Shown: positions 16,592 to 44,721, counted from the stretch's first letter. The stretch is 64,000 nt of DNA from Candidatus Nitrosoglobus terrae (GCF_002356115.1 NZ_AP014836.1:124001-188000); one strand, 5' to 3'. Notes: a model not told the origin generated them from the letters alone. Made by a program: numbers and translations.

Positions 16592-16685
16592 GTATTGCTA
16601 ATCCCTGTTCTAGTATTGATTATAAGAAGCATCAATTATAATTTGTCTGCTATTTTCCAGCCCTGGTTGCGTAAGGATTACCTTG

Positions 16686-27396: not shown

Positions 27397-28086
27397 TTGA
27401 CAGTTAATTTATCACGGTATGGCTTAAAAAAAATAAAACGCTCACATGGCGGATTTACCTTGGTAGAACTGCTCATTGCCATTACCTTAGTAGGGATAAT
27501 TTTGGTGATCTTATTTAGTAGTTTACGGCTATCAACCCGCAGTTGGGAGGCGGCTGAGCAAAAGACTCAGTCGATTGAAAAATTCAGAGTCATCGATAGT
27601 CTATTTCGTCGTCAACTTAGAGAGCTTAAGCTGTTGTTTTACCATGATCCTGAGCAAGGATCTGTAATTACTTTTTGGGGTAGCTCTAATAGCATGAGGT
27701 TTGTGGCCCCCTTACTCACTCATTTAGGCTTAGGTGGACTGTATTGGATCACCTATAAGGTGGTGAAAAAAGGGAAGACATCACAATTAATCATGAATTG
27801 GCAGCCTTACCGACCTAATGAGCCACTGACAGATCAACCTGAGCAGGAAGTGTTATTAGATGCCATCGATAGTGTAAGATTTTCTTACTTCGGTGGAAAT
27901 ATGGCGATGGGCGAAGGATTTCAGTGGCGTGAAGGTTGGGAAAATTTACAGCAGGCACCACAACTTGTACGTTTAAAAATCAGCACTGAGGGTATTCAAT
28001 GGCCCCAGTTGGTCGCTCGTATTCAGGTTGATCCCCGAGATAGCAGTCAAGCGCCAGGGGGAGGAGGTATTGGCTTTGGCCCTTAA
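27397..28086 (+). CDS. gspJ: Type II secretion minor pseudopilin GspJ
   Basis: GspJ is one of the minor pseudopilins forming the tip of the type II secretion pseudopilus. The protein has 229 residues from a TTG at 27397; no ATG precedes the prepilin motif, so a TTG start is forced. The prepilin-peptidase site is GGFTLVELLIAITLVGI after a short basic leader. A GspJ-like beta domain follows with SIEKFRVIDSLFRRQLRELK and QPYRPNEPLTDQPEQEVLLD. It opens a six-gene run gspJ-K-L-M-C/N-D. The genes for GspE, F, G, H and I are not in the window, so they must be elsewhere if the machine is complete. Confidence 0.85.
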   Translation: MTVNLSRYGLKKIKRSHGGFTLVELLIAITLVGIILVILFSSLRLSTRSWEAAEQKTQSIEKFRVIDSLFRRQLRELKLLFYHDPEQGSVITFWGSSNSMRFVAPLLTHLGLGGLYWITYKVVKKGKTSQLIMNWQPYRPNEPLTDQPEQEVLLDAIDSVRFSYFGGNMAMGEGFQWREGWENLQQAPQLVRLKISTEGIQWPQLVARIQVDPRDSSQAPGGGGIGFGP

Positions 28087-28990
28087 GCACCAAACTCTGG
28101 GCAGTCAGGCTACCCATCGAGGTATTGCTCTGGTATTAGTATTATGGGCAATTACTTTAGTAGCTGTTATTGCGGCCAGCTTTGCTTACACTGTGGGTAT
28201 TGAGGCTACGCTTGCTGCAAACTTGGTAGGGCAGGCGAAAGCGCGAGCTTTGGCAGAAGCCGGTATTCATTATGCTATTTTTGATCTTCTCGGCTCCGTG
28301 CAATTACATCGTTTTACTGCTGATGGTACCCCTTACCCTATAGAGATTGGCTCGGAAACCGTGACTATTTCAGTTCGGGATGTTACGGGGCTAATTGATT
28401 TAAACACGGCCAGCCGAGAGCTTTTAGGGGGATTATTCATGGCGGCTGGTGTACCACAAGATCAGCTAGATTCTTTACTTGATGTGATTGAAGATTGGCG
28501 AGATCCCGATGATATACCTCACCCACAGGGCGCAGAAGATCAAGACTATATTGCTGCTGGATTACCTTATGGCGCTAAGGATGCCCCTTTTGAAGAGGTC
28601 ACAGAGCTGCAGCAAGTTTTTGGCGTATCGTTAGAGTTATATCGACGGGTTGAGAAATCATTGACCGTATTTTCTGGGCAGGCGGGTATTAATCCTGCAG
28701 CCGCATCTAGAGAGACTTTATTAGCCATCCCAGGAATTGATCCCGGATCGGTTGAAGCTTATGTTCAAGCGCGTGCAGAAAGCCAAGCCGCGGGAGGGAC
28801 ACCGCCTCCCCCGCCTGCTATGGGTGCTGGATATTTGGCTCAGACGGGGGGGGTAGCGTATAGTTTGCACGCTGAGGCCAAGATAACAGGAGGGGGAGTT
28901 GCCATTATAGAAGCTACAGTATCCCCAGGGGCTTTGAATACGGGAGGCATCATCCCCAATTCATCGGTATTTGAGTGGAGGAGTTTATAG
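28076..28990 (+). CDS. gspK: Type II secretion minor pseudopilin GspK
   Basis: GspK is the large minor pseudopilin at the tip of the pseudopilus. A hydrophobic prepilin-like segment, GIALVLVLWAITLVAVIAAS, follows a short polar leader. The mature part contains the alpha-helical insert domain with IDLNTASRELLGGLF, EDWRDPDDIPHPQGAEDQDY and INPAAASRETLLAIPGI, all typical of GspK. The start is uncertain: TTG 28076 lies eight bases after GAGGAGG and gives 304 residues, overlapping gspJ by 11 bases; TTG 28028 would make it longer. The C-terminus contains a proline run and a flexible stretch before the last beta part. Confidence 0.87.
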   Translation: MALKHQTLGSQATHRGIALVLVLWAITLVAVIAASFAYTVGIEATLAANLVGQAKARALAEAGIHYAIFDLLGSVQLHRFTADGTPYPIEIGSETVTISVRDVTGLIDLNTASRELLGGLFMAAGVPQDQLDSLLDVIEDWRDPDDIPHPQGAEDQDYIAAGLPYGAKDAPFEEVTELQQVFGVSLELYRRVEKSLTVFSGQAGINPAAASRETLLAIPGIDPGSVEAYVQARAESQAAGGTPPPPPAMGAGYLAQTGGVAYSLHAEAKITGGGVAIIEATVSPGALNTGGIIPNSSVFEWRSL

Positions 28991-29029: not shown

Positions 29030-30148
29030 ATGAAATATCAATCAAAACGAAAACAGCAAAAAAGTAGTGCTAAGGTTGCTTCTTCCCATTCTCTGAATAT
29101 TGATGTCAATATAGATCTAAGCCGTTTTTTAGCTTGGTGGGGGCAAGGGCTTATGTATTATCTTCCTCCGTCGGTACGGCAGTTATTTTGGCATCAGGCG
29201 GCAACGGTAGTCTTGGAGCCACAGGGCGATGGAGTGCGGATACAGCGACTGCGGAGAGAAAGTAATGAGGTGCTTGGCTTTTATGATGGAGTGAGGCGTT
29301 GGGATACCAGTTTGCTTCATGAAGGTGAGGTCTTGATATTTCGCCTGCCAGCAGCGCAAGTACTCTCAAAATCCATTGAACTGCCCTTTGCAGCGGAAGA
29401 GAATTTACGTCAAGTCCTTGCTTTTGAGATGGAGCGACACACCCCCTTTACGGTCAATCAGGTGTATTACGATTTTGAGGTAATCAGCCGTAATGCAACT
29501 ACACGTCAAATAACAATCCGCTTAGTAGTAGCACCGCAGCGGATTTTGAATGAATGGCTGGAGCGGCTGTCTGATTGGGGACTGCAGCCGGCTGTAGTCA
29601 GTGTAGTGGGTCTTGAAAAGATGCGGATCAATCTACTGCCCCAGGAATCTCGTCCTGTTAAATCTAGTATTCTGCCCCGGATTAATATTGGGCTAGGGGT
29701 ATTGCTGCTGGTTTTGGTTGCAACGGCTACTTTACTCCCGTTGTGGCAAGAACGGAATGTGGTTATTCAGTTAATGCCAAAAGTGGCGGCGGCTCAGCAG
29801 CAAGCTGAGGCGGTTGTGGCTATTCGCCAGCAACTGGAGAAAGCGGTTAAGGCTTCAGAGTTTTTAATTAAAGAAAAACGACAATATCCTTCAGCGGTAG
29901 AGTTTCTCTATGAGCTTACTCATATTCTGCCCGATAGTATTTGGCTGCAGCAGCTTGATTTTACCCGAGGTGAGCTTAATATTCGGGGAGAGGCCGTTGA
30001 GGCATCCGCACTAATAGCCCTTTTACAGTCCTCTACGTATATGAAAAACGCCCAATTTCGCTCACCGATTACCACTGATTCTCAGACGGGTCGAGATCGT
30101 TTCCATATCACGGCTCAGATCCCTAAGGTGGAGATACCTCTTTCATGA
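29030..30148 (+). CDS. gspL: Type II secretion protein GspL (PilN-domain type)
   Basis: GspL is the inner-membrane platform protein that links the cytoplasmic ATPase GspE to GspM. The 372-residue protein has an N-terminal actin-like cytoplasmic region (about 55-200), with EENLRQVLAFEMERHTPF as the conserved stretch of the short GspL/PilM-PilN form. One membrane segment lies at about 222-242, followed by a periplasmic coiled coil and a ferredoxin-like PilN domain, with LYELTHILPDSIWLQQLDF near 295. The start ATG is 40 bases after gspK and its stop overlaps gspM (ATGA). Confidence 0.87.
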   Translation: MKYQSKRKQQKSSAKVASSHSLNIDVNIDLSRFLAWWGQGLMYYLPPSVRQLFWHQAATVVLEPQGDGVRIQRLRRESNEVLGFYDGVRRWDTSLLHEGEVLIFRLPAAQVLSKSIELPFAAEENLRQVLAFEMERHTPFTVNQVYYDFEVISRNATTRQITIRLVVAPQRILNEWLERLSDWGLQPAVVSVVGLEKMRINLLPQESRPVKSSILPRINIGLGVLLLVLVATATLLPLWQERNVVIQLMPKVAAAQQQAEAVVAIRQQLEKAVKASEFLIKEKRQYPSAVEFLYELTHILPDSIWLQQLDFTRGELNIRGEAVEASALIALLQSSTYMKNAQFRSPITTDSQTGRDRFHITAQIPKVEIPLS

Positions 30149-30759
30149 ATTTTCATCTACCAGAAAAGTGGCACGGTGCTGCCGCTATAGGTTTATTGTT
30201 ATTGATTTTACTAATGATTTATATTGTGGCTATCCAGCCGATTATCGCAAAGCATAGATTTTATCAAGAGAATATTGCCTCAATGCAGCAACGGTTGGAG
30301 AAATATCAGCAAATTATTGCTAGTCGACCGACGCTGGAGATTCAGTTAAAGCAGTTATATCGAGAGCAGGCCACTAATGCTTATTATCTAGCCCAGCAAT
30401 CTGCGCCACTAGCGGCCACCGAACTGCAAAGATGGGTTAAAGCTGCATTGGAGGCCAGCGGCGGTGGCGGCACTTTAATGAGTATGCAAAATTTACCCGT
30501 CGTTGAAACTGAACTTTTCCCCCGGGTAGGAATCAATGTTCGGATGAACGGTAGTACCGAAGTCTTAGAGAAAGTGCTCTATGATTTAGAATCTAGGCAT
30601 CCTTTGTTATTTATTGATCACCTTCAAGTCATGAGCCGCCAAATCCGGCAGCGTAGCTTGCAAGATCGAAAAAAAATCATTGAAAAAACCCTACTGACGA
30701 TTAGCTTTGAGCTTTACGGGTATATGCGAGATCCTAATGCACCACCCGTTGGCGCTTAA
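30145..30759 (+). CDS. gspM: Type II secretion protein GspM
   Basis: GspM is the second inner-membrane platform protein, which binds GspL. It has 204 residues: a short cytoplasmic start, a membrane helix at about 12-30 (AAAIGLLLLILLMIYIVAIQ), a coiled coil at 38-75 and a ferredoxin-like periplasmic domain with VGINVRMNGSTEVLEKVLYD. The shape matches the GspMb subgroup. Its start overlaps the gspL stop by four bases and its end overlaps the following GspC/N-like gene by 23 bases, so the set is tightly coupled. Confidence 0.85.
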   Translation: MNFHLPEKWHGAAAIGLLLLILLMIYIVAIQPIIAKHRFYQENIASMQQRLEKYQQIIASRPTLEIQLKQLYREQATNAYYLAQQSAPLAATELQRWVKAALEASGGGGTLMSMQNLPVVETELFPRVGINVRMNGSTEVLEKVLYDLESRHPLLFIDHLQVMSRQIRQRSLQDRKKIIEKTLLTISFELYGYMRDPNAPPVGA

Positions 30760-31345
30760 TCATCGGATGCTGGCTAATTTGCTGGCAGGTTTATGTTTAT
30801 TGGCGCTGATAATCATTGTTTTAAAGGCGCTATATCCCGTAAGGCTTTCACCGGATGCAGGTAAAACGCAGGCCAAAACAGACTCGGTAAACACTCATCC
30901 CCCTGCGCGGAAACCACCAGAGCAAATTGCGTTAATTCCTTTCACTCGCTATGGGGAGATTGCTACTCGTCCACTTTTTCGACCCAATCGCCAGCCCCCT
31001 GATCCTGATGAAATGGAGACAGGTGAGACTAATGAGACTAAAGAACAAAGAGCTATCCGGGAAAGGGAGGAGCAACAGCTCAATAGTCATGTGGAGGATT
31101 TATTTGTCATTAGCGGGATTGTGGTTACTGACCATAAAGCTATAGCTCTTTTGCACGATATTAAAAATGACAAACTGCTACGAGCGATTGAGGGAGAGGA
31201 GCTAGAGGGTTGGAAAATCAAGCAGATTTTTCCTGATAATGTATTATTTAGGAATACGGAACGAGTAGAGACCTTGAATTTAATTCGGCGCTTTGAGCCG
31301 GTTAAAGCAAGTACATCGCCGAAAAACTCACCCTCAGCTCGATAA
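30737..31345 (+). CDS. GspC/GspN-like type II secretion protein
   Basis: The ATG at 30737 gives 202 residues. One membrane segment (about 12-33) is followed by a Pro-rich linker, the RPLFRPNRQPPDPD motif typical of the GspC homology region, an acidic stretch with many Glu residues, and a small beta domain with LFVISGIVVTDHKAIALL and GEELEGWKIKQIFPDNVLF. In GspC this HR domain contacts the secretin, so the gene probably provides the inner-to-outer membrane link. GspN of the Xanthomonas XpsN type is an equally good name. A PDZ domain is absent. It lies between gspM and gspD. Confidence 0.75.
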   Translation: MHHPLALNHRMLANLLAGLCLLALIIIVLKALYPVRLSPDAGKTQAKTDSVNTHPPARKPPEQIALIPFTRYGEIATRPLFRPNRQPPDPDEMETGETNETKEQRAIREREEQQLNSHVEDLFVISGIVVTDHKAIALLHDIKNDKLLRAIEGEELEGWKIKQIFPDNVLFRNTERVETLNLIRRFEPVKASTSPKNSPSAR

Positions 31346-31433: not shown

Positions 31434-34001
31434 TTGCAAGAGAAGCATAAAAATATACGCTATATGAACTGGCTCGTAGCTGTTTGTTTTCTTACCTTAA
31501 GCGCTTGTATAAATCAGACTCCCCGTACTGAAGATCAGCAGCAATCAGAACCCCTTGAGACTTCCTCTTCTGATTCGGATCAGCAATCTTTGGCACCGCA
31601 GCAAGAGCAAGAGCAAGAGCAAGATAAGGATAAAGCCATAGCCACTGAAGTAAAGCTTAAAGATAAAGAGAAGAAAAAAGCCAAACCGCCAGAGCTTTAC
31701 CCCGGAAGTAATCACTTCATTGATCTTAAGGCCGCCGGCAAATCGCCTGCTTTTGAGGTAGTAAAAGGCGCTATTTTATTGAACTTTGAAAATACTAATC
31801 TTCGCGAGGTAGTTAAAACTATTCTTGGGGATATCTTAGGGGAGAATTATCTCATTGATCCGGCGGTTCAAGGAACAGTGACGGTACAAACGGGTCGACC
31901 ACTGCCCAAGGAGGTGTTAGTCCCCACCCTTGAAAACTTGCTGCGGATGAATAACGCGGCTTTAGTACAGTCCAAAGGGCTATATAAGGTTGTTCTGACG
32001 AGCCAGGCGCTCCAAGGAAATCTATCCCCCCATTTAAAGGCGGCTCAGGCGACCCCGGGGTATGGCGTGCGGATTATCCCGTTACACTACATTGGGGCAG
32101 CTGAGATGGAGAAAATCCTCACTCCCTTTGTCCCCAAGGAAGCTTTTATTCTAGTGGATCCTAATCGAAACTTGATCATGCTAGCGGGTATCGCCCAAGA
32201 ACTGGATCAATGGCAGGAGACCGTAGATGTTTTTGATGTGAACTGGCTTAAAGGCATGTCGGTGGGATTATATCGGTTGCAAAACACCGAGGCTGGAACG
32301 GTGGCTACTGAATTGGATGGGATTTTTGGCGCTGAATCGGATACCCCGTTAGCGGGAATGTTTCGCTTTGTGCCGGTTGAGCGGCTTAACGGTATTTTGG
32401 TGATTACTTCTCAGTCCAAATATCTGGATGAGGTGAAAACGTGGATAGATCGCCTGGATCTAGATGAAGATATCGAATCAGAGCATTTTTACGTCTACCA
32501 AGTGCAAAATGGCAAGGCCGAGTATCTGGCTGATCTATTACAAAGCGCTTTTGGTCAAGAAAGTAGCGCTTCCTCATCGGGTAAGGTTGCGCCAGGGCAA
32601 CGATCCAGTCAGCTGTTCTCATCTCCTGGGGGGAGAGGAGGCATGGGTTCTATGTCCGGATCAGGCGGGTTCGGTTCTTCTTCGTTTGGTTCCGGCGGTT
32701 TTGGTTCCTCCTCTGGTGGTATGGGGGGAAGCATGGGCGGAAGTATGGGTGGACGTACGGGAGGTGGGTTTTTAGCCTCTCAGGAGGTAGATCCTAATGC
32801 AGCTACTCAAGAATCGGCTACAGCACCTGATAAATCTACCCAGAAAACAGATCCCAATCAGCCTGCGCAAGCCTTAAATCTGCAAATTTCTCAAGCAGAA
32901 AGTAAAGGCAATAAAGGGAAAGAAAAATCTGGCGTAGGTAAAAAGATAAAATCTCTATTGGGTGGCACTAAAAGCAGTGATAGCGAAGAACCCGAGGTAC
33001 GTATTATTCCCGATGAAGCTAATAACTCATTGCTGATTGCCACCACGCCTCCGACTTACGATAAGATCAGAGCCATTCTTCGCCATCTGGATATAGCCCC
33101 TCGCCAAGTGCTGATAGAGGCTACTATTGCTGAAGTGACCTTAACCGGTGCGCTTCAATATGGGGTGCAATGGTTTTTCAAAAATGGGATCGGAAAAGCC
33201 GGTAATAATAATTTTAGCGGTACCGGTACGATCAATACGGGCGGGGCATCGCCCTTGACCGCTGCTGCAGCTTCTGCGGCTAAAGCCCTGGGAAGCAGTA
33301 ATTTCTCCTATGCGCTGACGAGTGGAGGAGCCATTAACGCGCTCCTTACTGCGGCGGCCTCTGAGAGCAAGCTTAACGTGCTTTCCTCTCCCCAGCTGAT
33401 GGTGCTGGATAACCAGATGGCCGAGATTCAAGTGGGAGATCAGGTACCTATTCTATCTGGCCAGACAGCAGGCGTAGGGGGGATTGGGACGGGCGTACTC
33501 ACCTCGCAAGTTCAGTATAAAAATACCGGTGTTATGTTAACCGTTATTCCCCGCGTTAATGCGGGAGGGCGGGTGACGTTAGAGCTTAAGCAAGAGGTGA
33601 CTGATCAAGGCAGTGCAGTGACGGTAGGGAATATTTCAAATTTTACTTTTCTACAGCGCGCTTTCCAGAGCGTGGTGACGGTGCAAAGCGGCAATACAAT
33701 TATCTTAGGGGGCTTAATTCGCACTAATGATACGTTTAACAGTAACGGGGTTCCTTTTTTATATAAATTGCCCCTCGTAGGCTCTCTGTTTGGTTCTCGG
33801 AACACCACTAAGAACCGCACTGAGTTGATTGTACTGATGACTCCGCGCGTAGTGCGGGATCAAACTGAAGCCAGGTTGGTGACCGAAGAATTTCGTCAAA
33901 AGCTGAATAACGCTTCTAATATTGCTAACCAAGAGGCGACAATGGAAGATGAAGGGGGAGATCCTTATTATTCTAATATAGAAAGTCAACCCCTAAAATG
34001 A
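31434..34001 (+). CDS. gspD: Type II secretion secretin GspD (lipoprotein)
   Basis: GspD forms the outer-membrane channel of type II secretion. The TTG at 31434 is favoured by AGGGGA seven bases upstream; an ATG at 31464 is an alternative. The 855-residue protein has a lipoprotein signal (LTLSAC near residue 24), an acidic Gln/Glu/Lys-rich linker, N0-N3 domains with ILLNFENTNLREVVKTILGD near 112 and the secretin core with VLSSPQLMVLDNQMAEIQVG, VPILSGQTAG and TIILGGLIRTNDTFN. A long Gly/Ser/Met-rich insertion (about residues 380-450) and a second charged stretch (about 470-520) interrupt the N3 region. Its lipid anchor may remove the need for a separate pilotin, but this is inference. Confidence 0.93.
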   Translation: MQEKHKNIRYMNWLVAVCFLTLSACINQTPRTEDQQQSEPLETSSSDSDQQSLAPQQEQEQEQDKDKAIATEVKLKDKEKKKAKPPELYPGSNHFIDLKAAGKSPAFEVVKGAILLNFENTNLREVVKTILGDILGENYLIDPAVQGTVTVQTGRPLPKEVLVPTLENLLRMNNAALVQSKGLYKVVLTSQALQGNLSPHLKAAQATPGYGVRIIPLHYIGAAEMEKILTPFVPKEAFILVDPNRNLIMLAGIAQELDQWQETVDVFDVNWLKGMSVGLYRLQNTEAGTVATELDGIFGAESDTPLAGMFRFVPVERLNGILVITSQSKYLDEVKTWIDRLDLDEDIESEHFYVYQVQNGKAEYLADLLQSAFGQESSASSSGKVAPGQRSSQLFSSPGGRGGMGSMSGSGGFGSSSFGSGGFGSSSGGMGGSMGGSMGGRTGGGFLASQEVDPNAATQESATAPDKSTQKTDPNQPAQALNLQISQAESKGNKGKEKSGVGKKIKSLLGGTKSSDSEEPEVRIIPDEANNSLLIATTPPTYDKIRAILRHLDIAPRQVLIEATIAEVTLTGALQYGVQWFFKNGIGKAGNNNFSGTGTINTGGASPLTAAAASAAKALGSSNFSYALTSGGAINALLTAAASESKLNVLSSPQLMVLDNQMAEIQVGDQVPILSGQTAGVGGIGTGVLTSQVQYKNTGVMLTVIPRVNAGGRVTLELKQEVTDQGSAVTVGNISNFTFLQRAFQSVVTVQSGNTIILGGLIRTNDTFNSNGVPFLYKLPLVGSLFGSRNTTKNRTELIVLMTPRVVRDQTEARLVTEEFRQKLNNASNIANQEATMEDEGGDPYYSNIESQPLK

Positions 34002-34192: not shown

Positions 34193-34684
34193 TTGTATCT
34201 AAAAAACAACATTGAGCGGGACAATCAAAATCAATCAAAGGAGGCGCTTATTCTTCCGAAGACTACTGTTGTTAACAAAGAGCTGTTTTCATCCTACCTA
34301 ACCTCCACTCTTACCCTAATTATTATCACTCTCATGATTAAGCTGAGCGGCTGTACTACCGCCCCGACCACCGAGGAGATCGTAAAGCAACGGGCACTTG
34401 AACGGTGGCAGGCTTTAGTTCATGGGGATTTTGATAAGGCGTATGATTATTTAAGCCCGGGTTATCGGGCGGTAAACCCGTTAAATTTGTATCGGGGTCG
34501 CTTTGGTCATGCCGTAGTGTGGGAACAGGCGGGGATCAAACAGATTGCTTGCACGGCTAAGGCTTGTGAAGTAACCGTGAGTATCCACTATCGCTACCCA
34601 GCAAGAAATTACCAAGGGGAAAGCACAGTGGAAGAGCGATGGATAGGGGAGGATAACCACTGGTGGCTATTGCCAAAAGATTAA
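34193..34684 (+). CDS. Small lipoprotein, NTF2-like
   Basis: The frame runs from TTG 34193 (163 residues) but no ribosome-binding site fits that start. A perfect AAAGGAGG at 34237-34244 points to an ATT codon at 34250, giving 144 residues. Either way the protein has a hydrophobic stretch and a lipobox, IKLSGCTTAPT, so it should be an outer-membrane or periplasmic lipoprotein. The mature part has helix-sheet features seen in NTF2-like proteins: ALERWQALVHGDFDKAYDYL, LNLYRGRFGHAVVW and VTVSIHYRYPARNYQGE. I do not recognise a specific family. It stands between the secretin gspD and the first secreted paralogue, so an accessory role in secretion is possible. Confidence 0.7.
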   Translation: MYLKNNIERDNQNQSKEALILPKTTVVNKELFSSYLTSTLTLIIITLMIKLSGCTTAPTTEEIVKQRALERWQALVHGDFDKAYDYLSPGYRAVNPLNLYRGRFGHAVVWEQAGIKQIACTAKACEVTVSIHYRYPARNYQGESTVEERWIGEDNHWWLLPKD

Positions 34685-34767: not shown

Positions 34768-36735
34768 ATGAGAAAAACAAAACTGGCTATGGCAGTTTCC
34801 CTAGCCCTTGCTGGCACCAGCGGAACGTTTGTAGCGAATGCCCAGGTTCCCAATGCGGGCATCAACGTCAACCCGGATGGATTAGGACAAGTACTGTTGT
34901 TTCCCTACTACACGGTGAGAAATAACAACAACACCTTAATTGCCATTGGCAACAGTCATCCTAACGAAGTCAAAGCGGTGAAAATCCGTTTCCATGAAGG
35001 TAAGAACAGTAAAGATACCCTAGATTTTCACATCTACCTGTCCCCCAACGACATGTGGACGGGGTCGTTAGTCCAAAGTCAAAACGGTGTGATGCTCACC
35101 ACGGCGGATAAATCCTGTACCGTGCCGCCTATTCCAGCCAATGGGGTTGAATTTCGGAACACCGTCTACGCCATTCAGCAGCCCGACGGGGAAGACATGA
35201 CCTTAGATCGGACGCGGGAAGGGTATATCGAAATCATCGAAATGGGGGTGGTGACTTCTGCTGCTGGCCCAATTACCAGTACTAACACCAATGTCACTAA
35301 CTTGGCACAAGCCGCTACCCACGTCAATGGTGTGCCCCAAGATTGTGCGGCGCTGAACAATGCGTGGGGCTCGGGTGGTCTGTGGGCTAACACGAACCCT
35401 CAGGGAAGCACCGGAGTGACCTCCCCTACAGGTGGCTTATTTGGGGATTTAGCTATTGTTAATGTGCCGCGGGGGACGGATTACACCGTCGCCGCCACCG
35501 CGTTGCAGAACTTTGCCCTTGGCACGCCTGGTCAATTGGTTGGAACCTTGGGTAATGAGGATCTCCACGCGGCCCCTGGGTCTGATTTCCCCAACCTAGG
35601 CTTTGATGCGGGCGCTACCAGTGGTGCGCCGGTACCAATCCTCCCAGCCGATGTGATGACCTTCAGCAATGTCTTTGTGGATGGAGGAATGGTGAGTTCC
35701 CAATGGGGTAATCGAATTGATGCCGTCAGTGCGGTGTTAATGCACGCCTCGGTGATCAACGAATACACCACTGAGCCAGGCTTAAACGCCAACACCGACT
35801 GGGTGTTGACCTTCCCCACCAAAAACTTCTATGTCTGTGCGGTGAATCCCGCTCCCACTGCCAACAGTCCCACCCCTAACACAGGCAATAGCGACTGCGC
35901 CCCTGGGGTAGTCGGTTCTGGCGTGCTCGCTGGTGCAACCTTTGGCCCGCCCTTTAGCCTACCGCAAGGCACAGGCTTTTGGACCGGAGGAGCGCCACAA
36001 AATGTAAATATGAACATCTTTGATCGGGAAGAAACCACCACCGTTCAGCCTATTGACTTCTCTCCCCCTTCTCCTACGGGTGCCAATACCCTACCGTGGG
36101 AAGTCAATACCATTACCTTCAACCAGCCTTCAGGCATGACCACCAGCACCGTACTGGGATCAGCGCTGGTGTCCAATGTATCCACGGGCAGTGTTGGGGT
36201 GAATGGTTGGATGAATTTAGATCTGACCCCCGGTCATAGTATGTCTACTAATGGTTTGGTTGTTAACAACGCTGGTGGTGGAGCTGCAACGACTACCTAT
36301 ATCGGTTTACCGGTCATTGGTTTTGGGGTGGAGGAGTATGTCAATGGAAGCATCAATGGTGTGCTAGCCAACTTCGCTTCTGTCTTCTCCCATAGACTCT
36401 GCGCAGCCACCACATCAGGCGGTGAGGGTAACACCGATTGCGGCGGTAATATCACGCTTCCTCCGCCAGCGACAGGTACTGGCACTAGCACTAGCACAAG
36501 TACCAGCACTGACACAGGTACAGGCACAGGTACAGGCACAGGTACAGGTACAGGCACAGGTACAGGCACAGGTACAGGCACAGGTACAGGTACAGGTACT
36601 GACACAGGTACAGGTACTGACACAGGTACAGGTACTGACACAGGTACAGGTACTGACACAGGTACAGGTACTGACACAGGTACAGGTACTGACACAGGTA
36701 CAGGTACTGACACAGGTACAGGTACTGGTCCATAA
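34768..36735 (+). CDS. Secreted protein of unrecognised family with Gly-Thr repeat tail
   Basis: Starting at ATG 34768, eight bases after AAAGGAGA, the 655-residue protein has a signal peptide, [20 protein letters not shown], cut near VANA-QVPN. The main part (about 28-560) shares blocks with the protein at 37899: [88 protein letters not shown] and [12 protein letters not shown]. Cysteines occur in matching places. The tail is Ser/Thr-rich, then a Gly-Thr repeat, then seven DTGTGT units. I know similar proteins as uncharacterised secreted proteins in other proteobacteria. Position after gspD suggests a type II secretion substrate. No sorting motif or membrane segment is seen at the C-terminus. 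Confidence 0.82.
36475..36731 (+). repeat. Tandem repeat: 6-base GGTACA/GGCACA units, then seven 18-base units
   Basis: Within the 3' end of the secreted-protein gene, 36517-36600 consists of 14 consecutive 6-base Gly-Thr units, GGTACA or GGCACA with a last GGTACT. From 36601 to 36726 the unit GACACAGGTACAGGTACT is repeated seven times without a base change, coding for DTGTGT. All units are multiples of three, so changes in copy number would alter tail length without shifting the frame. Confidence 0.95.
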
Positions 36736-36778
36736 TAACCCAGTCGCTAAATCAACTAGCTTTAGCCGACAGGCAACC

Positions 36779-36812
36779 AGAGCAGATCGCTTCGGCGGTC
36801 TGCTCTTTTCTT
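36779..36812 (+). terminator. Strong rho-independent terminator
   Basis: AGAGCAGATCGC pairs with GCGGTCTGCTCT around a TTCG tetraloop, with one G-U pair, and is followed by TTTCTTTCT. It ends the secreted-protein gene, so the parvulin gene downstream probably has its own promoter or depends on read-through. Confidence 0.92.
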
Positions 36813-36853
36813 TCTCACTCACCTAGTTTTAAAGCAAATCGTTTAATTTGAAT

Positions 36854-37825
36854 ATGATGATGAAATATTTTGGCATAGGGGTATTCGTAGGATTTTATGC
36901 CAGCTTAGCTTTAGCTGCAGATAATCCGCCTAATACCCCGTTAATTGAATACCAAGACGTTACCGTAACCCAGCAAGACTATGCGGCAGAGCTGGCCACC
37001 TTGCCCCCCCAGTTTCAAGCTGAAGTTGGCACCAGTGGTAAGCAGGTGCATAAACTGTTAGACAAGGTTTTTGTGTATCGGGTACTGGCTAAGGAGGCAC
37101 GTACTGAAGGCTTAGATCAAGATCCTCAGTTACAAGCCCAGGTGCAGTTGGCGCAGGAGCGAACCTTGGGGTTAGCCCGCTTAGATCAACTCCGAGCGCA
37201 AGCGTTAGCCACTCATCCGGATTTTGCGGCGCTGGCTAAGGAGAAATACCAAGCGAATCCGCAAGAATACACCACGCCTGAGCAGGTGAAAGTAGCCCAT
37301 ATTCTCATTAAGCCGGAAGAGAGTTCCCCAGCGGCGGAAGAGAAAGCGCAACAATTGGCAGAACAGATACGCCAGCAAGCCTCAGCGGGGGAGAAATCCT
37401 TTTCCGATCTCGCCCTTGAGTATTCCCAAGATCCTTCCGTGAAGCGAAATCATGGCGATCTGGGGTTTATCACGGCTGGGAAAACCGTAAAGCCCTTTGA
37501 AGAGGCCGCCTTTGCTTTACAAAAGCCAGGGGAGATTAGTCCGGTCGTTAAAACTCAGTACGGTTTTTATATTATTCAACTAGAAGCCCGTCAACCAGCG
37601 CAGCTTCAGCCGTTTACTGAGATACAAGCCCAGCTAGTGAAGGGGATTAAGGAGAAATATTTACAGGATATAGTGAGTCACCACCTACACCAGATTCGCA
37701 ACGCGGAAGGGATTAATATGAATGGAGAGGCGTTGAAAAACCTGATTAAACCCAATCCGTATAAAGCGGCGGGAGCAACGAAGGGGGTTATTATTAGCCC
37801 AGCCCCAGCTGATTCAGCTCAATAA
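36854..37825 (+). CDS. Periplasmic parvulin-type peptidyl-prolyl isomerase
   Basis: The protein is a PpiC/SurA/PrsA-like folding helper. The first ATG at 36854 (a TTG at 36848 is possible) gives 323 residues with a signal peptide ending near SLALA-ADNP. Two parts follow: a helical SurA-N-like chaperone region (about 40-130) and a single parvulin domain (about 140-250) with VKVAHILIKPEESS, FSDLALEYSQDPSVKRNHGD and LGFITAGKTVKPFEEAAFAL. The Ala/Pro-rich tail is disordered. Parvulins of this layout (EpsD-like) are found in exopolysaccharide loci. It lies between the two paralogous secreted-protein genes, so a client relation with them is likely but inferred. Confidence 0.9.
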   Translation: MMMKYFGIGVFVGFYASLALAADNPPNTPLIEYQDVTVTQQDYAAELATLPPQFQAEVGTSGKQVHKLLDKVFVYRVLAKEARTEGLDQDPQLQAQVQLAQERTLGLARLDQLRAQALATHPDFAALAKEKYQANPQEYTTPEQVKVAHILIKPEESSPAAEEKAQQLAEQIRQQASAGEKSFSDLALEYSQDPSVKRNHGDLGFITAGKTVKPFEEAAFALQKPGEISPVVKTQYGFYIIQLEARQPAQLQPFTEIQAQLVKGIKEKYLQDIVSHHLHQIRNAEGINMNGEALKNLIKPNPYKAAGATKGVIISPAPADSAQ

Positions 37826-37898
37826 ACATTGATAACCTCATCCCTCAACTGCTTCTGCTATGCTTAAGGAGCGTATTTCTTGAGCAGACAGAAAGGTG

Positions 37899-39572
37899 AT
37901 GGTAAAAATAATGGAGGTGATCCTCGTAGCTTGGGTATTAGTAAGTACCCACGGGATCTTCACTCTGGCTGGCGCGGTTAATTTAGCGCCTGATGGTTTA
38001 GGGGAAGTATTGCTGTTTCCGTATTATACGGTGAGAAATGGGAATATGACCTTACTGTCTATTATCAATACTCGCCAGCGGGTAAAAGCCGTAAAGCTAC
38101 GGTTTTTGGAAGGGAAAAATGGCCAGCCGGTGCTGGACTTTAATCTTTATTTATCGCCGCAAGATGTCTGGACGGGATCTTTAGCCCAAAGCGCAACCGG
38201 TACAGTATTAACCACTACTGATAAATCCTGCACCGTACCGGCTATTCCCCCTGCGGGCGTTGAGTTTTCTAATACGGCCTACGCCATGACTTCCCCTGAT
38301 GGGGAAGATACGAGCTTAGATCGAACACGAGAAGGTTATTTTGCAGCCTTTGACATGGGCGTTGTCACCGACTCTGCTTTAGCAGCCGCCGCCACTCATA
38401 TCGATGGCTTACCGCAAAATTGCGCTGCCCTACAACAAGCCTGGACTACGGGAGTGTGGGCGTTAACGCCCAGCATGGGTATGGGTTTTGATCCGGGTGG
38501 GCTATGGGGTAGCCTGCAGTTAGTCAATGTTAATCAAGGCACGGATTATGGAGCTTCAGCCATCGCCCTTGGGGGTTTTTTTAGTACTGCTATTCATACC
38601 GCAGCGAGTGCCCCGTTGCCGAATTTATCCTCAGCGAATCCTGAAACCGATATTCTGACTCAGGCCAATCCTGCTGGAGGTGTGCCGAGCGTAGTGCATT
38701 CCACTTGGCCACAGAATAGTCAAGGAGGTGTGGATGCGGTAAGTGCGGTTTTAATGCGCCGCGCAGTGATCAATGAATATACCATTGATCCCGCCTTAGC
38801 GGCGCGTACTGATTGGGTGGTTAATTTTCCAACGAAACGATTCTATGTGCCGATACACAATAGCACCAATGGGGGCATACCAATTGTCGCTACCCCACCG
38901 TTTACCCAGAGCTTCTGGACGGGAGGCGCGCCCGAGGCGGTAGCGTTAAGCCTGCGGGATCGGGAAGAGCAGGTAAACAAAGGGAGCGCTGCAATGTTAC
39001 CTTGGGCAGTGAATGTGATGACCTTTAGGGATATTTCTGTCTTAGGGTCGGCGCTGACGCTTGCTATAGATACGGCCAATATGGGGAACAATGGCTGGAT
39101 GAAGCTGAAATTTCCAGTCACTCCAAATCCCATCAGCAGCAGGCAGAACATCCATGAGCTGATAGATAATGAGGGCAGTGCTTACTTGGGTTTGCCGGTG
39201 ATGGGTTTTGCGGTGGAAGCCTATGGAAATAAAGATGCCCATTATAGAGAGCTATTGCCCCATAAATTTAGTCGGGATATAGCTATGAGTCTAGATGAGG
39301 TGATCGCTAAAACAATACCCCCTAAGGTGGCGATGCCTAAAACATCAGCATCTAAGTTGTCAATGGAGAAAGCTGCTTGCCAGACGGCTATTGAGATGGA
39401 GATTGAATTGCAAACGGCTAGGGGATCGGCAACCGTTAATGGGGCACTGGCCATGATAGCTTGTCAGGCAGCAGCTGCAATCATCGCCGCATCACCGCAG
39501 GTGCCCATTGGGGCGGCGGCAATAGAGGCGGCGGTTAAGGCAGCAGCCATAGCGGCGATTACCCATCAGTGA
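37899..39572 (+). CDS. Second secreted paralogue, without the repeat tail
   Basis: From ATG 37899 the protein has 557 residues. A signal peptide ends near TLAGA-VNLA. The core is homologous to the protein at 34768: [114 protein letters not shown] and YLGLPVMGFAVEAYGN. The C-terminal 90 residues differ: after a Lys/Ser stretch there is an Ala-rich helical segment with two cysteines (KAACQTAIEMEIELQTARG and MIACQAAAAIIAA). A good ribosome-binding site (GAAAGG) precedes the start. The function of the family is unknown to me. Confidence 0.85.
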   Translation: MVKIMEVILVAWVLVSTHGIFTLAGAVNLAPDGLGEVLLFPYYTVRNGNMTLLSIINTRQRVKAVKLRFLEGKNGQPVLDFNLYLSPQDVWTGSLAQSATGTVLTTTDKSCTVPAIPPAGVEFSNTAYAMTSPDGEDTSLDRTREGYFAAFDMGVVTDSALAAAATHIDGLPQNCAALQQAWTTGVWALTPSMGMGFDPGGLWGSLQLVNVNQGTDYGASAIALGGFFSTAIHTAASAPLPNLSSANPETDILTQANPAGGVPSVVHSTWPQNSQGGVDAVSAVLMRRAVINEYTIDPALAARTDWVVNFPTKRFYVPIHNSTNGGIPIVATPPFTQSFWTGGAPEAVALSLRDREEQVNKGSAAMLPWAVNVMTFRDISVLGSALTLAIDTANMGNNGWMKLKFPVTPNPISSRQNIHELIDNEGSAYLGLPVMGFAVEAYGNKDAHYRELLPHKFSRDIAMSLDEVIAKTIPPKVAMPKTSASKLSMEKAACQTAIEMEIELQTARGSATVNGALAMIACQAAAAIIAASPQVPIGAAAIEAAVKAAAIAAITHQ

Positions 39573-39608: not shown

Positions 39609-40382
39609 ATGAGGCAGTATCGAGCACTTTTTCAGCAATTACTGCTACGGGAAATTAACAGTCGTTATCTGGGGAGCCTCAGTGGTTATTTTTGGGTTTT
39701 GGTGCAACCCCTTGCCCAACTCGCCCTCTATGCTCTAGTGTTTACTACTATTTTTCGGGTGCGTTTTCCAGAGCTGGCTCAGCATAACTTTATCACTTTT
39801 GTAGCCATTGCGCTGTGGCCTTGGTTGGCCTTTCAGGAAGCTATTCAGCGGGCGCTAGGGGCTATTACCAGCAACGCGGGGCTGATTAAAAAAATTGCCT
39901 TGCCCCATGAAATACTTATCTATGCCGCCGTGGGGAGTAGCTATGTCGTCCACGGGGCGGGATTTTTGTTGGTGCTAGCGGTATTAACCATTTTAGGATC
40001 GGATCTTTATCTGAGTACCTTACCTTGGGTGCTGATATTACTGGGCATGTTATTTTTATTGACCTTAGGGTTGGCGTTGGTATTGGCCACCTTACAGGTA
40101 TTTTTACGGGATATTGAGCATGGACTGGTGTCAGTGCTGATGCTCTGGTTTTACGCTTCCCCTATCTTATATCCGGTGTCTTTAGTGCCAGCGCCTTTCC
40201 ATACTTTGATTCTAGCCAATCCCTTAAGTTATTTTTTTGATCGGTTGCGGGCGTTATTGATGTTTGGTCAAGGAGAGTTTACTGGAGTAGATCTAATAGC
40301 AGCAGGGAGCAGCGTACTGGTGTTTATGTTTGGGCTGGCTTTTTTCCGCCGCTGTGCCGGTCGGTTTGAGGAGTTTTTGTAA
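39609..40382 (+). CDS. Polysaccharide ABC exporter, permease (Wzm-like)
   Basis: The 257-residue protein is the membrane half of an ABC-2 exporter for O-antigen or another lipid-linked polysaccharide. It begins with a basic amphipathic start, LLLREINSRYLGSLSGYFW, typical of the Wzm/KpsM/TagG family, then about six membrane segments, with the conserved LWFYASPILYPVSLVP region near residue 175 and LANPLSYFFDRLRALL near 205. It is followed two bases later by the ATPase gene. This start, the lack of KpsM features and the Wzt-type partner favour a Wzm role. Confidence 0.9.
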   Translation: MRQYRALFQQLLLREINSRYLGSLSGYFWVLVQPLAQLALYALVFTTIFRVRFPELAQHNFITFVAIALWPWLAFQEAIQRALGAITSNAGLIKKIALPHEILIYAAVGSSYVVHGAGFLLVLAVLTILGSDLYLSTLPWVLILLGMLFLLTLGLALVLATLQVFLRDIEHGLVSVLMLWFYASPILYPVSLVPAPFHTLILANPLSYFFDRLRALLMFGQGEFTGVDLIAAGSSVLVFMFGLAFFRRCAGRFEEFL

Positions 40383-40384
40383 GG

Positions 40385-41578
40385 ATGGTGCCTAAATTAC
40401 TGGTGAAGTTAGATCAAGTGAGTAAAGTGTACCCAAAGCTGAGTACCTCTAGGGATCGGTTACAGGCGTTTTGGGCCATACTCAAGAATCGGCAAGATTA
40501 TTCAGGTTATTCGGTGCTACAGGAGATTTCTTTACATCTATATCAAGGGGAATCCTTAGGGATTATCGGCGAAAATGGAGCTGGCAAATCCACTTTACTT
40601 AAGCATATTGCCGGTGTGGTGAAACCCTCTAGGGGAACCGTAGAGGTCTTTGGCCGCATAGGCGCGTTGTTAGAGTTAGGGGCTGGTTTTCATCCTGAGT
40701 ACAGTGGTAGAGAGAATCTTCGGCTCTCAGCGGCACTGATGGGAATGAGCGATTCAGAGCTTATTGAAAAACTAGACGCGATTATTGAATTTGCGGATAT
40801 TGGTGCTTATATTGATGAGCCAATTAAGCATTACTCTTCGGGGATGGTGGTACGGCTTGGGTTTGCCTTGGTAAGCGCTTTGCGGCCAGAGTTATTGATT
40901 ACCGATGAAGTATTAGCGGTAGGCGATGAATCTTTTCAAAAAAAATGTATTCGCTGGATAGAAAATTACTTGAACCAAGGCGGTACTTTGCTTCTGTGCT
41001 CCCATAGCATGTTCCATGTTCAGAAATTGTGCCAAAAAGCGGCTTGGATTAAAGGTGGGCGGTTGGTGTCTTGTGGGGAAGTTTTTCAAGTTACCCAAGA
41101 TTATTTGGCCTATCATGAGGGTAAATCTCAGCAGGAAGCTGTTGATAGCCTTAAAAAAGAGCAGATATCGACAGCCCTCTATCGAGTATCGGCGTTAAGG
41201 ATTTCTGGAGCAGCAGGCGAAGAGCTTGCTCTAATTGCCATGGGGGAAGATTTAATTGTTAACGGGGAACTATACTCTCCAGATGATCGGCCTCCCGTGG
41301 TTGCCATTGGAGTTGTGCGTACCGATGGAGCGGCGATTTATGGGTTAATCTCTGATGTAGATGGTTTTACCTTAAATAAGTTAGCCCCCCATCAGTTTGG
41401 ATTTCGGTTGACATTTTTTCAATTGCCTTTACTTCCTGGAAAATATACCCTTCGCGCTCATGCCATGGACCCAGAAGGCTTAAGGTTGTTTGATACCATA
41501 GAACAAGCCTTTCAGGTGACAGGGCAGACCCGAGAGCTTGGGTTATGTTGTTTAGCTCACGCGTGGGCATCTCCCTAG
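40385..41578 (+). CDS. Polysaccharide ABC exporter, ATPase with C-terminal sugar-binding domain (Wzt-like)
   Basis: The 397-residue protein has the nucleotide-binding domain in the first 240 residues: Walker A GENGAGKST near 63, the HYSSGMVVRLGFALVSAL signature near 150, and Walker B LLITDEVLAVGDESFQKK near 172. The last 140 residues form a Wzt C-terminal beta-sandwich, with ELYSPDDRPPVVAIGVVRTD, which in known Wzt proteins recognises the modified end of the O-antigen chain. Together with the Wzm-like permease it forms an exporter. A capping modification such as methylation would fit the two methyltransferase genes just downstream. Confidence 0.93.
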   Translation: MVPKLLVKLDQVSKVYPKLSTSRDRLQAFWAILKNRQDYSGYSVLQEISLHLYQGESLGIIGENGAGKSTLLKHIAGVVKPSRGTVEVFGRIGALLELGAGFHPEYSGRENLRLSAALMGMSDSELIEKLDAIIEFADIGAYIDEPIKHYSSGMVVRLGFALVSALRPELLITDEVLAVGDESFQKKCIRWIENYLNQGGTLLLCSHSMFHVQKLCQKAAWIKGGRLVSCGEVFQVTQDYLAYHEGKSQQEAVDSLKKEQISTALYRVSALRISGAAGEELALIAMGEDLIVNGELYSPDDRPPVVAIGVVRTDGAAIYGLISDVDGFTLNKLAPHQFGFRLTFFQLPLLPGKYTLRAHAMDPEGLRLFDTIEQAFQVTGQTRELGLCCLAHAWASP

Positions 41579-41605: not shown

Positions 41606-42538
41606 ATGGCATTTGATAGTTACAGTCATTTTTGGGATCAGCAGGCTAGCACTACCGACGGAGCGATTGCTGCGGTGGATGGTAGTGCTAATGAAAGTAT
41701 TGTTCAGCTGACCGGCCAATGGAGCGCAAATTTAGTTCGAGCAGCACTTACTCTTAAAGGGAGTGAACGGGTGCTAGAGTTGGGCTGTGGTGTGGGTCGC
41801 ATTGGTCGAGAGTTAGCCCCTTATTGTGGTTATTGGCAAGGAGTTGATATCTCTCACAATATGCTTAAGGTCGCCCAAGCGCGATTAGCTGGCCAGACAA
41901 ATACGGGATTTTGTCAATTACACCGTACCAGTTTAGAGATGCTAGAGAATGAGAGTTTTGATCGGGCCTATTCTATCGCGGTATTTTGTCATTTAGATAA
42001 GGAGGATTTATTCCTTTATTTAAAAGAACTTTATCGGGTTTTAAATCCCCATGGCCTGATTTATGTAGAAACATGGAATTTAGCCCATCCTGTAGGCTGG
42101 AAACGCTGGGAGCTGGAGGTAAATCACTGGGCGAGATCGGATCATCGTCAGCGTAAAGATGTAGCACGTAATCAATTTTGTACTCCGGATGAATTTAATC
42201 TCTATCTCCAAGGAGCGGGTTTTAAAACTCTAGCGTGTTATACCGATTCGCCTTGGATTCAAGCCATTGCTACTAAGAGCGCCCTAGAATCTGAACAGGA
42301 ATCTATTAAAATAGTACTCAGGGCTAAGGAGCATAAAATTGCTTATTCACCATTATTTTCTACACTTTTTGATAGGCTGCTGGATGTTGTCAGCGGTTTA
42401 ACTCACCCTAAAGAGTATTTAGCGTTTTTAGATGCTCAAGAAGCGTCCGAGGAGAACAGTATGTATCGGCGTTACTTATTGGCGCTATGGTCATCTAAGG
42501 AAGATCTTTGGGGGGCTACTGTTATAAATGGTGTTTGA
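41606..42538 (+). CDS. SAM-dependent methyltransferase
   Basis: A 310-residue class I methyltransferase. The SAM-binding loop is VLELGCGVGRIGRELAPY near residue 54, with FDRAYSIAVFCHLDKED around 115 and LYRVLNPHGLIYVETWN following. The C-terminal 120 residues are specific to this protein. Its target cannot be told from sequence, but the polysaccharide-export setting suggests a sugar or a lipid-linked intermediate. The gene ends eleven bases after the next one begins. Confidence 0.85.
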   Translation: MAFDSYSHFWDQQASTTDGAIAAVDGSANESIVQLTGQWSANLVRAALTLKGSERVLELGCGVGRIGRELAPYCGYWQGVDISHNMLKVAQARLAGQTNTGFCQLHRTSLEMLENESFDRAYSIAVFCHLDKEDLFLYLKELYRVLNPHGLIYVETWNLAHPVGWKRWELEVNHWARSDHRQRKDVARNQFCTPDEFNLYLQGAGFKTLACYTDSPWIQAIATKSALESEQESIKIVLRAKEHKIAYSPLFSTLFDRLLDVVSGLTHPKEYLAFLDAQEASEENSMYRRYLLALWSSKEDLWGATVINGV

Positions 42539-43130
42539 TCTGGGTTTTCCCGATCCAGTCACCAGTTTCCTAGGCATTGATCGGTTGGGCAAAGACTGTC
42601 GAATTAGCCCGAGCGTCAGCGTGATGAGGCGGGGAGTCGCTCACTCTGGGCAAGGGATATTTCTTGGGGACCAGGTCATCTTATTTGATAATACCCGGCT
42701 CGTATTAGGAGATGTGAGCCTATCATCAGTAGCACGACTGGATCTGGGTAATCAGGTGATTATTAATGTGGGGAGCTATATTTCGGGAGAAGGCGGATTG
42801 ATCATTGAAGAGGAAGTGCTCATTGGGGCTCATGTGCGTATTTTATCTGCAGGCCATGAGATTCATCGGGGTGAGTCTTCCGTTGCTCGTAACCCCATTA
42901 CTTATGGGGCTATCCATATTGGTCAAGGGGCTTGGGTTGGCGCAGGCAGTACCCTATTGCAAGGCGTTACCTTAGGCGCAGGGAGTGTAGTAGGGGCCGG
43001 TAGTGTGGTCACTAAAGAGATACCGCCCTATGCCGTAGCTGTAGGCAATCCTGCTAGGATCTCCCATTATCGACGGGGATATGGGCCTAAAAAGCAATGG
43101 GCTTTTTGGTATAAGAGCCCAGATCGCTAA
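42528..43130 (+). CDS. Hexapeptide-repeat acyltransferase (LbetaH)
   Basis: A 200-residue acetyl- or acyltransferase of the left-handed parallel beta-helix class. The repeats are visible as SYISGEGGLIIEEEVLIGAH and ILSAGHEIHRGES, with the catalytic histidine, then IGQGAWVGAGSTLLQGVTLG, GAGSVVGAGSVVTKEIPPYA and VAVGNPARI. Such enzymes O-acetylate sugars of surface polysaccharides. It overlaps the previous methyltransferase gene by eleven bases and is one base from the next. Confidence 0.88.
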   Translation: MVFDLGFPDPVTSFLGIDRLGKDCRISPSVSVMRRGVAHSGQGIFLGDQVILFDNTRLVLGDVSLSSVARLDLGNQVIINVGSYISGEGGLIIEEEVLIGAHVRILSAGHEIHRGESSVARNPITYGAIHIGQGAWVGAGSTLLQGVTLGAGSVVGAGSVVTKEIPPYAVAVGNPARISHYRRGYGPKKQWAFWYKSPDR

Positions 43131-43131
43131 A

Positions 43132-44721
43132 ATGAGCAAGGATACCTCGTCGGAGAAGCTTGGAGTCATTCCAGCAGCAGAAGCCTATATTTATCAACGA
43201 AACTTTGATCCTCAAGGAGAGGACTCCTTAGCCAAGATTGCACGCTTAATACGCCCTCATAGCCGAGTACTTGATCTAGGTACAGGTCCTGGGATTTTAG
43301 GTCAATATTTATCTACTATCCTAGGGTGTACTGTGGATGGGGTGGAATTAAGCCTAGAACAAGTTCAGATTGCGGCTCCCTTTTATCGCAATCTTCTGCA
43401 GGCTGATTTAGAACAGGTAGATTTAGCGGCCCTTTTTCCTGAGTCCTATGATTATGTTGTTGCTGCCGATATCTTTGAGCACTTAAGAAATCCAGAAGCT
43501 ATTGTTTCTCAGTTGCCAGCGTTGTTGGGCACTGAAGGTCGAGCTATGCTCTCTGTTCCCAATATTGCCCATGCCGGTGTAATTGCTGAACTGTTAGCAG
43601 GGGAATTTCGCTATCGCCCAGAAGGGTTATTGGATACTACCCACGTACGCTTTTTTACCCGTCAATCGTTATTAACACTGTTAACAGCATCAGGTCTAGC
43701 CGTGCTTTCAATAGATACGGTGCGTTACGATTTACGAGAAAGTGAGTTTAAGCACTATTATTTAGATACCTTACCCCCCGCTATTTATCGTCTACTAGCA
43801 GCTTATCCAGATAGTTTAACCTATCAGTTTATTGTGGAAGTGACCCCAGAGCAGCAGGCGGCAAATTTAAATGCTATTCATCAGGGCGTGAATAAATTTT
43901 ATTTTTCCACGCAGATGTATTGGCGTTTTGAGGGGGAAGAATATCAAGAGGAAAACAGTATTCAAGCTTTGGGTGTTATTGGCGATAAGCGGCAGGTTAT
44001 CCAATTTTCTTTTCCGCTCACCAAGCAATTACTTAGCGGAATACGGATAGATTTAGCTGATCGCCCCGGTTTTTTGCGGTTATATGAAATAGCGCTTTAT
44101 GATAGTGATAAAAATTGTCTTTGGAGATGGGAAGAAAATATTACTACGTTATTAACCAAAGAAACTCATCAGGTTGAGTTTGCAAGTGGGTTAGTGACCT
44201 CTTTTGGAACCAATATGCTCTTAACAGGGGAGGATCCTTATATTGAATTACCCCTGAGTGAATCTGATTTAAAACCGTTAAAGGGTGGAGGTACGTTAGC
44301 ATTAATACTCTCATGGCCAATATCGGCAGATTTTATGGCACTCACTCAATGTTTAGGACAAAGAGATAGAGCGCTTATCCAGCAGCAGCAGCTCATCGCG
44401 CTCCAAAACCAGCAAGCCCATGAAAAAGATAAATTACTAGCGCTTAAAGATAGACAGCAACAGGAGAATGAGCAACTACTGGCACACATCACTGAGCAGC
44501 TAAACGAGAAAGAGCGATTAATTGTGCACCATCATTTTCAACTGCGGGAAATCAGCCGGACGGTGGAGCGGCAAAATAACCAGATGTCATACTATGAAAC
44601 GTTGATTAAGTCGCTAGAGTTTCAGTTGAGATACCGAGATAGCTGGCGGAGTTGGATCCGTAGGCCACTGAGACCGTTAAAGCGCTGGTGGTTAAAGATC
44701 ATTGAGATTGTAGGTCGATGA
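43132..44721 (+). CDS. Methyltransferase with long C-terminal coiled coil
   Basis: From ATG 43132 the protein has 529 residues (ATG 43081 is inside the previous gene). Residues 30-190 form a class I methyltransferase: RVLDLGTGPGILGQYLSTIL and DYVVAADIFEHLRNPEAI. A middle beta-rich domain spans about 220-410. The last 110 residues form a Gln/Leu-rich coiled coil followed by a basic tail. The coiled coil resembles those seen in Wzb-/WbdD-type chain-length regulators, which cap O-antigen, but that comparison is speculative. Its end overlaps the glycosyltransferase gene (ATGA). Confidence 0.85.
   Translation: MSKDTSSEKLGVIPAAEAYIYQRNFDPQGEDSLAKIARLIRPHSRVLDLGTGPGILGQYLSTILGCTVDGVELSLEQVQIAAPFYRNLLQADLEQVDLAALFPESYDYVVAADIFEHLRNPEAIVSQLPALLGTEGRAMLSVPNIAHAGVIAELLAGEFRYRPEGLLDTTHVRFFTRQSLLTLLTASGLAVLSIDTVRYDLRESEFKHYYLDTLPPAIYRLLAAYPDSLTYQFIVEVTPEQQAANLNAIHQGVNKFYFSTQMYWRFEGEEYQEENSIQALGVIGDKRQVIQFSFPLTKQLLSGIRIDLADRPGFLRLYEIALYDSDKNCLWRWEENITTLLTKETHQVEFASGLVTSFGTNMLLTGEDPYIELPLSESDLKPLKGGGTLALILSWPISADFMALTQCLGQRDRALIQQQQLIALQNQQAHEKDKLLALKDRQQQENEQLLAHITEQLNEKERLIVHHHFQLREISRTVERQNNQMSYYETLIKSLEFQLRYRDSWRSWIRRPLRPLKRWWLKIIEIVGR

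Follow-up and report, generated by a model that had tools for sequence, protein, structure and literature searches.

What are the two related secreted proteins that flank a peptidyl-prolyl isomerase just beyond a type II secretin in the gammaproteobacterial ammonia oxidiser Candidatus Nitrosoglobus terrae, and what do they have to do with secretion? The question was raised by an earlier note on a 64,000-nucleotide stretch of this organism's DNA (G000:C1:124001-188000, referred to here as the window; the source genome is 2.02 Mb in two contigs and carries an ammonia monooxygenase match). The two proteins, P0001 (34768..36735; 655 amino acids, ATG start) and P0002 (37896..39572; 558 amino acids, with a GTG start, or ATG one codon later), are both open reading frames at the positions given in the note, with signal-like N-termini and AxA-type sites. 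They are 40% identical over 617 columns (BLASTP, E=4e-119), and all of the conserved blocks quoted in the note are present in the alignment. Between them lies the isomerase, a periplasmic protein of the parvulin type (36848..37825), which has a hydrophobic signal at its N-terminus and matches the Pfam domains Rotamase_3 (E=1e-28; 100.6 bits against a curated cut-off of 22.5) and Rotamase (1.8e-27). The gspD secretin gene is indeed upstream (31434..34001), but not directly so, as had been stated: a lipoprotein gene that the note missed (34193..34684) intervenes. These genes belong to a set that runs from a gspJ-like gene to a sugar epimerase gene (27397-50498), all on the + strand. It is concluded here that P0001 and P0002 are very probably surface layer (S-layer) proteins of the NpdA type, encoded beside their own type II secretion system (T2SS), folding helper and glycan exporter.

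NpdA is the S-layer protein of Delftia and of Paracidovorax citrulli, in the latter as established by deletion, proteomics and cryo-electron microscopy. Its gene has 12 gsp genes upstream, the protein has a 25-residue signal and a mature mass of 52.4 kDa, and 15 of 16 further orthologue-bearing cultures had an NpdA-like layer (PMC10765051). The same paper includes Nitrosococcus species, Ca. Nitrosoglobus terrae and Ca. Nitrosacidococcus tergens among the owners of npdA, and describes the gsp clusters of Nitrosococcus and Ca. Nitrosoglobus terrae as being without gspEFGHI. In the window the cluster starts at gspJ, with gspE-I missing from it, and runs to gspD, followed by the lipoprotein gene and then by P0001.

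When about 85,000 genomes, each from a different species, were scanned using ten aligned family members as the seed, 376 relatives were confirmed. The hits include species on the published list of npdA owners (Nitrincola alkalilacustris, Gilvimarinus agarilyticus, Rudaea cellulosilytica, Wenzhouxiangella limi and Nitrotoga fabula) and, at the level of genus, Haliea, Neptunomonas, Chiayiivirga and Dokdonella. Comamonas odontotermitis is also a listed owner (PMC10765051), and its plasmid NZ_CP083452.1 encodes a 'cell surface protein' that matches the family profile (E=8e-81). This is the second gene past the gsp cluster, with a lipoprotein before it (E=1e-27) and a peptidylprolyl isomerase after it (E=1.5e-66), in the order rfbBDAC, gspE to gspD, lipoprotein, 'cell surface protein', isomerase, ABC permease and ATPase, and methyltransferases. 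The mature mass has a median of 51.3 kDa across the family, close to that of NpdA; with approximate cleavage sites and tails included, P0002 is 55.9 kDa and P0001 63.5 kDa. The family is taken to be that of NpdA because the scan hits match the owner list and because of the Comamonas bridge, the absent gspE-I, the size and the conserved order. What the window proteins share with NpdA of Delftia acidovorans and P. citrulli (PMC3110197, PMC10765051) is the position after the gsp cluster, the size, the signal peptide and the lack of a known domain, while the window differs in having two copies that flank the parvulin, both without a C-terminal cysteine pair.

The suggestion that this is an undescribed system, built around proteins of no described function, is not supported, since the family matches the NpdA S-layer proteins and its linkage to T2SS is already published (PMC10765051). 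The database searches that the note had suggested gave nothing at the level of sequence: with P0001 and P0002, searches of Pfam, NCBIfam and PDB sequences returned only low-complexity hits in the repeat tail, no Pfam domain was found in any of the 80 aligned family members, and a near-identity search of plasmids gave no match. Structural comparison did give leads, to TM1070 and galectins at modest Z, as described below.

The gene neighbourhood was counted in the best 80 loci of the 376 relatives; these 80 are from Betaproteobacteria and Gammaproteobacteria (one labelled Ferrovibrio). Typically, gspE-F-G-H-I-J-K-L-M-C/N-D is followed by genes for the lipoprotein, the NpdA-like protein, a variable secreted protein and the parvulin, and then by those for Wzm, Wzt, and methyltransferases and glycosyltransferases. 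Both gspD and the lipoprotein gene are found upstream in 59 of the 65 loci that have more than 4 kb upstream, and the parvulin gene downstream in 57 of the 60 that have more than 7 kb downstream, where Wzt is present in 53 and Wzm in 44. The note's description of a dedicated secretion module is thus upheld as far as linkage to T2SS genes and to the parvulin is concerned, with the qualification that there are copies away from gspD and one possible counter-example, both discussed below. The main text of PMC10765051 makes no mention of the parvulin, the lipoprotein, the variable protein or the glycan exporter. The S-layer proteins themselves are published as a family, but the complete gene set conserved with them appears to be undescribed. 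In Nitrosococcus, S-layers have been observed for more than 50 years with no protein identified, NpdA being the published candidate (PMC10765051), and the conserved set names a probable folding helper, a lipoprotein, a variable secreted partner and a likely glycan anchor of this type of S-layer.

In 67 of 73 pairs the NpdA-like gene is separated from the parvulin by a further gene of 140 codons or more, and 56 of these 67 genes encode a C-terminal TYYLN-like or SxCPG-like motif. The variable gene is missing in the window and in genome G002, where extra NpdA copies come after the parvulin. The intervening proteins (loci L033-L112) are fast-evolving and secreted, of about 150-650 amino acids, and frequently have a C-terminal domain that is rich in Cys (SxCPG ... 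TYYLN); no published description of them was found.

The note held that the isomerase is needed to fold the two secreted proteins, and its position, in the 57 of 60 loci, is consistent with a dedicated isomerase. SurA-like parvulins are general folding factors, and the parvulin might in the same way serve the outer membrane or the glycan pathway generally, and not the S-layer protein. We consider this rather unlikely, because the parvulin travels with the S-layer gene so regularly, and does so also in second modules that are away from gspD.

A structure of P0002 was predicted using AlphaFold2 on 80 sequences (predicted local distance difference test, pLDDT, 87.9; predicted template modelling score, pTM, 0.80), so that a fold is predicted with confidence for a family without a solved relative by sequence. 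The model has two β-sandwich regions. The one at the C-terminus (282-461) can be superposed on TM1070 (Z 8.9, root-mean-square deviation 2.7 Å, 110 residues, 4% identity), and the one at the N-terminus (32-211) aligns weakly to galectins (Z ~5). The superfamily of TM1070 (ASRAH) is predicted to bind sugars (PMC2739507); the likeness is structural and concerns the C-terminal region only, with no sequence-level link, and a shared β-sandwich shows no function. A Foldseek search with the whole model gave no match at E<=0.001, and the sialidase rows in its output were discarded for their low probability. The galectin-like matches were also set aside, being indistinguishable from a common β-sandwich.

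A resemblance to a predicted sugar-binding fold, together with the T2SS linkage, is also what might be seen if the proteins were T2SS substrates that are released and form no lattice, whether soluble or attached loosely (glycan-binding or enzymatic exoproteins, for instance). This is the general version of what the note had proposed. It is improbable, given that the NpdA orthologue forms an S-layer as judged by deletion and cryo-electron microscopy, that nearly all of the further cultures have a similar layer (PMC10765051), and that none of the 80 members has a Pfam enzyme domain.

The cysteines at alignment columns 346 and 369 are both present in 73 of the 80 members, both absent from 7, and never found singly. 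This covariation is as expected of a disulfide and supports the presence of periplasmic disulfides, although given shared ancestry it amounts to a few independent losses. P0001 and P0002 are among the members without the pair.

A secretin was found in all 22 genomes examined and, G384 excepted, each has a complete GspD with the N0 domain, whose size is as expected or nearly so. The family has a match in 16 of 369 sampled genomes of the class, and GspM of the T2SSM_b type is present in 11 of these 16, against 52 of the 369 overall (Fisher p=4e-7). Genome G384, which is about 99% complete, has the lipoprotein, NpdA-like protein, variable protein, parvulin, Wzm and Wzt together (L113:6495-11062), and dTDP-rhamnose genes too; in G384, G072 and G406 the set of lipoprotein, protein, parvulin and Wzm/Wzt is away from gsp genes. 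Genomes G003 and G004 each have a diverged second module, consisting of an NpdA-like protein, parvulin and lipoprotein (L026:7677-11590 and L028:8523-11911), near glycosyltransferases, sulfotransferase-like genes and Wzm/Wzt, with no gsp genes nearby. It possibly makes a second surface layer. Because of the linkage to gspD and T2SSM_b on the one hand, and these sets away from gsp genes on the other, it is concluded that the module is tied to T2SS, yet separable from it on the chromosome.

There are precedents for an S-layer gene with a T2SS of its own. In Aeromonas salmonicida, wzm and wzt enclose vapA and T2SS genes, and lipopolysaccharide tethers the S-layer (PMC4483657), which needs the linked T2SS (as cited in PMC10765051). 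This locus and the window both have an S-layer gene and its T2SS (Sps) among wzm/wzt O-antigen genes, but the order differs, in that T2SS and vapA are inserted between wzm and wzt; the comparison is of loci, not of sequences. Similarly, the Slr4 gene of Pseudoalteromonas tunicata is immediately downstream of a T2SS cluster, according to the passages on Slr4 in PMC7821379, which mention neither a parvulin nor a glycan exporter; here also the comparison is by locus and not by sequence. The idea that P0001 and P0002 are S-layer or surface proteins exported without the neighbouring T2SS (by a T2SS from elsewhere, the secretin of a type IV pilus or some other route), the linkage being a matter of co-transfer, would account for G384, for the orphan and second-module copies and for the lack of gspE-I in the window's cluster, but it is very unlikely in view of the adjacency conserved over distant families, the enrichment of T2SSM_b, the GspG match elsewhere in the source genome (the only one, at C1:344 kb, outside the window's cluster) and the requirement in A. 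salmonicida for the linked T2SS.

A number of observations weigh against the identification of P0001 and P0002 as NpdA-type S-layer proteins with the dedicated apparatus described. The window proteins are just 28-29% identical to the Comamonas protein, and the NpdA identity, which is a strong inference, is based on the order of genes, the lists of owner species and one relative that has a name, not on direct alignment to NpdA. The fold matches are modest, and may reflect a common β-sandwich arrangement only. The sole N0 match in G384 is in a PilQ-like secretin and there is no GspG match, a missing contig being possible; this is the one possible case of homologues in a genome without T2SS, which the earlier note had named as refuting its proposal. 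The second modules of G003 and G004 and several orphan copies are not beside gspD. Finally, Wzm and Wzt are less constant than the parvulin across the loci, and another Wzt_C protein is encoded in the source genome, at C1:855 kb, so that glycan export by an ABC transporter may not be confined to this locus.

Homology, a conserved gene order, predicted folds and covarying cysteines are what was observed; beyond them, we infer a route in which P0001 and P0002 would both be S-layer subunits, each crossing the inner membrane by Sec. They would fold in the periplasm with the co-encoded parvulin, stabilised by disulfides, leave via the GspD secretin of the adjacent type II system, and form a lattice on the outer membrane, anchored to a polysaccharide that would be synthesised by the methyltransferases, glycosyltransferases and epimerase encoded downstream and exported through Wzm/Wzt. 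A role in assembly or anchoring, either periplasmic or in the outer membrane, may belong to the NTF2-like lipoprotein. The vapA locus of A. salmonicida is the closest experimental precedent for such a mechanism. A broader reading, which is tentative and somewhat doubtful, is that the whole cassette (T2SS, NTF2-like lipoprotein, NpdA, fast-evolving secreted partner and parvulin) is a single S-layer assembly line, in which the Wzm/Wzt glycan anchors the lattice via sugar-binding β-sandwich domains, and that acid-adapted ammonia oxidisers have swapped the partner for a second NpdA to give a two-component lattice.

The source genome also has a third, unlinked paralogue (L032:9286-10860, at G000:C1:805 kb) of 524 amino acids with a Gly-rich tail, which retains the C-terminal Cys pair lost from P0001 and P0002. 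In the tree P0001 and P0002 are not sisters: P0001 joins the copies of G002 (support 94), next to which P0002 and the third paralogue stand in no settled position. The duplications therefore seem to be confined to the acid-adapted lineage, in an unsettled order. The repeat tail of P0001 is rich in Thr, Gly and Asp and is encoded by an 18-bp tandem array (36508..36727; Tandem Repeats Finder, 12.2 copies, 93% match).

Some other copies are irregular. A 93-residue open frame at G000:C1:1642138 matches only the C-terminal end of the family (E=1e-7). In G002 the parvulin is flanked by two near-identical npdA-like copies (L024:13675-15392 and 16514-18803), each consisting of two overlapping frames, from either a natural frame change or an assembly error. 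The npdA-like gene of G001 (a Nitrosococcus-like genome of 3.48 Mb; L030:9700-10510) is broken: the signal peptide and first block are followed by a large deletion with a frame change, and the C-terminal part is open. G001 is possibly a natural strain without an S-layer, or one that lost it in the laboratory.

The window's gsp cluster begins with two minor pseudopilins. The gspJ-like gene (27397..28086) is in the same cluster as GspJ of homologous loci and was assigned by position and clustering. The gspK-like gene (28028..28990) clusters with homologous loci, and its name comes from clustering and order; PF03934 (GspK) does not find its product in the source genome. Since this profile hits many control genomes and misses the window's type of GspK, it was not used as evidence. 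They are followed by a gspL-like gene (29030..30148; Pfam PilN E=3e-14, PilM_2 and T2SSL weaker), gspM of subtype b (30145..30759; T2SSM_b E=8.7e-26), a gspC/N-like gene recognised by conserved position (30707..31345; T2SSC only E=0.25) and gspD (Secretin E=9.6e-46, Secretin_N 4e-33, GspD N0 2e-16). The lipoprotein, which is conserved upstream of the S-layer gene and whose start codon is uncertain, has the lipobox LSGC with an invariant Cys. Its model (pLDDT 87.8) has NTF2-like and KSI-like matches up to Z 12.4, and this concerns the fold alone, with no function implied.

Downstream, the set extends to about 50.5 kb. The glycan exporter consists of Wzm, an ABC-2 permease (39609..40382; ABC2_membrane E=7e-11, 42.4 bits), and Wzt, an ABC ATPase with a Wzt_C glycan-recognition domain (40385..41578; ABC_tran E=1.7e-19; Wzt_C E=1.9e-7, 31.6 bits against a cut-off of 30.4). 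Next are a methyltransferase that is probably a glycan gene (41606..42538; Methyltransf_25 E=8e-18), a hexapeptide acyltransferase (42528..43130; Hexapep E=7e-12), a methyltransferase with a C-terminal extension (43081..44721; Methyltransf_23 E=2e-21), and a two-domain glycosyltransferase, of family 2 and family 4-like (44718..46973; Glycos_transf_2 E=1e-15, Glyco_trans_1_4 E=2e-10). The set ends with a family 2 glycosyltransferase (48414..49457; E=8e-26) and an NAD-dependent sugar epimerase/dehydratase (49479..50498; Epimerase E=1.5e-39).

Hypothetical proteins on two Nitratiruptor plasmids (NZ_AP023064.1 and NZ_AP023060.1; about 33.5 kb) resemble the Comamonas protein in its N-terminal domain alone (33% identity, E=5e-7), and this domain may thus occur beyond the NpdA-like family.

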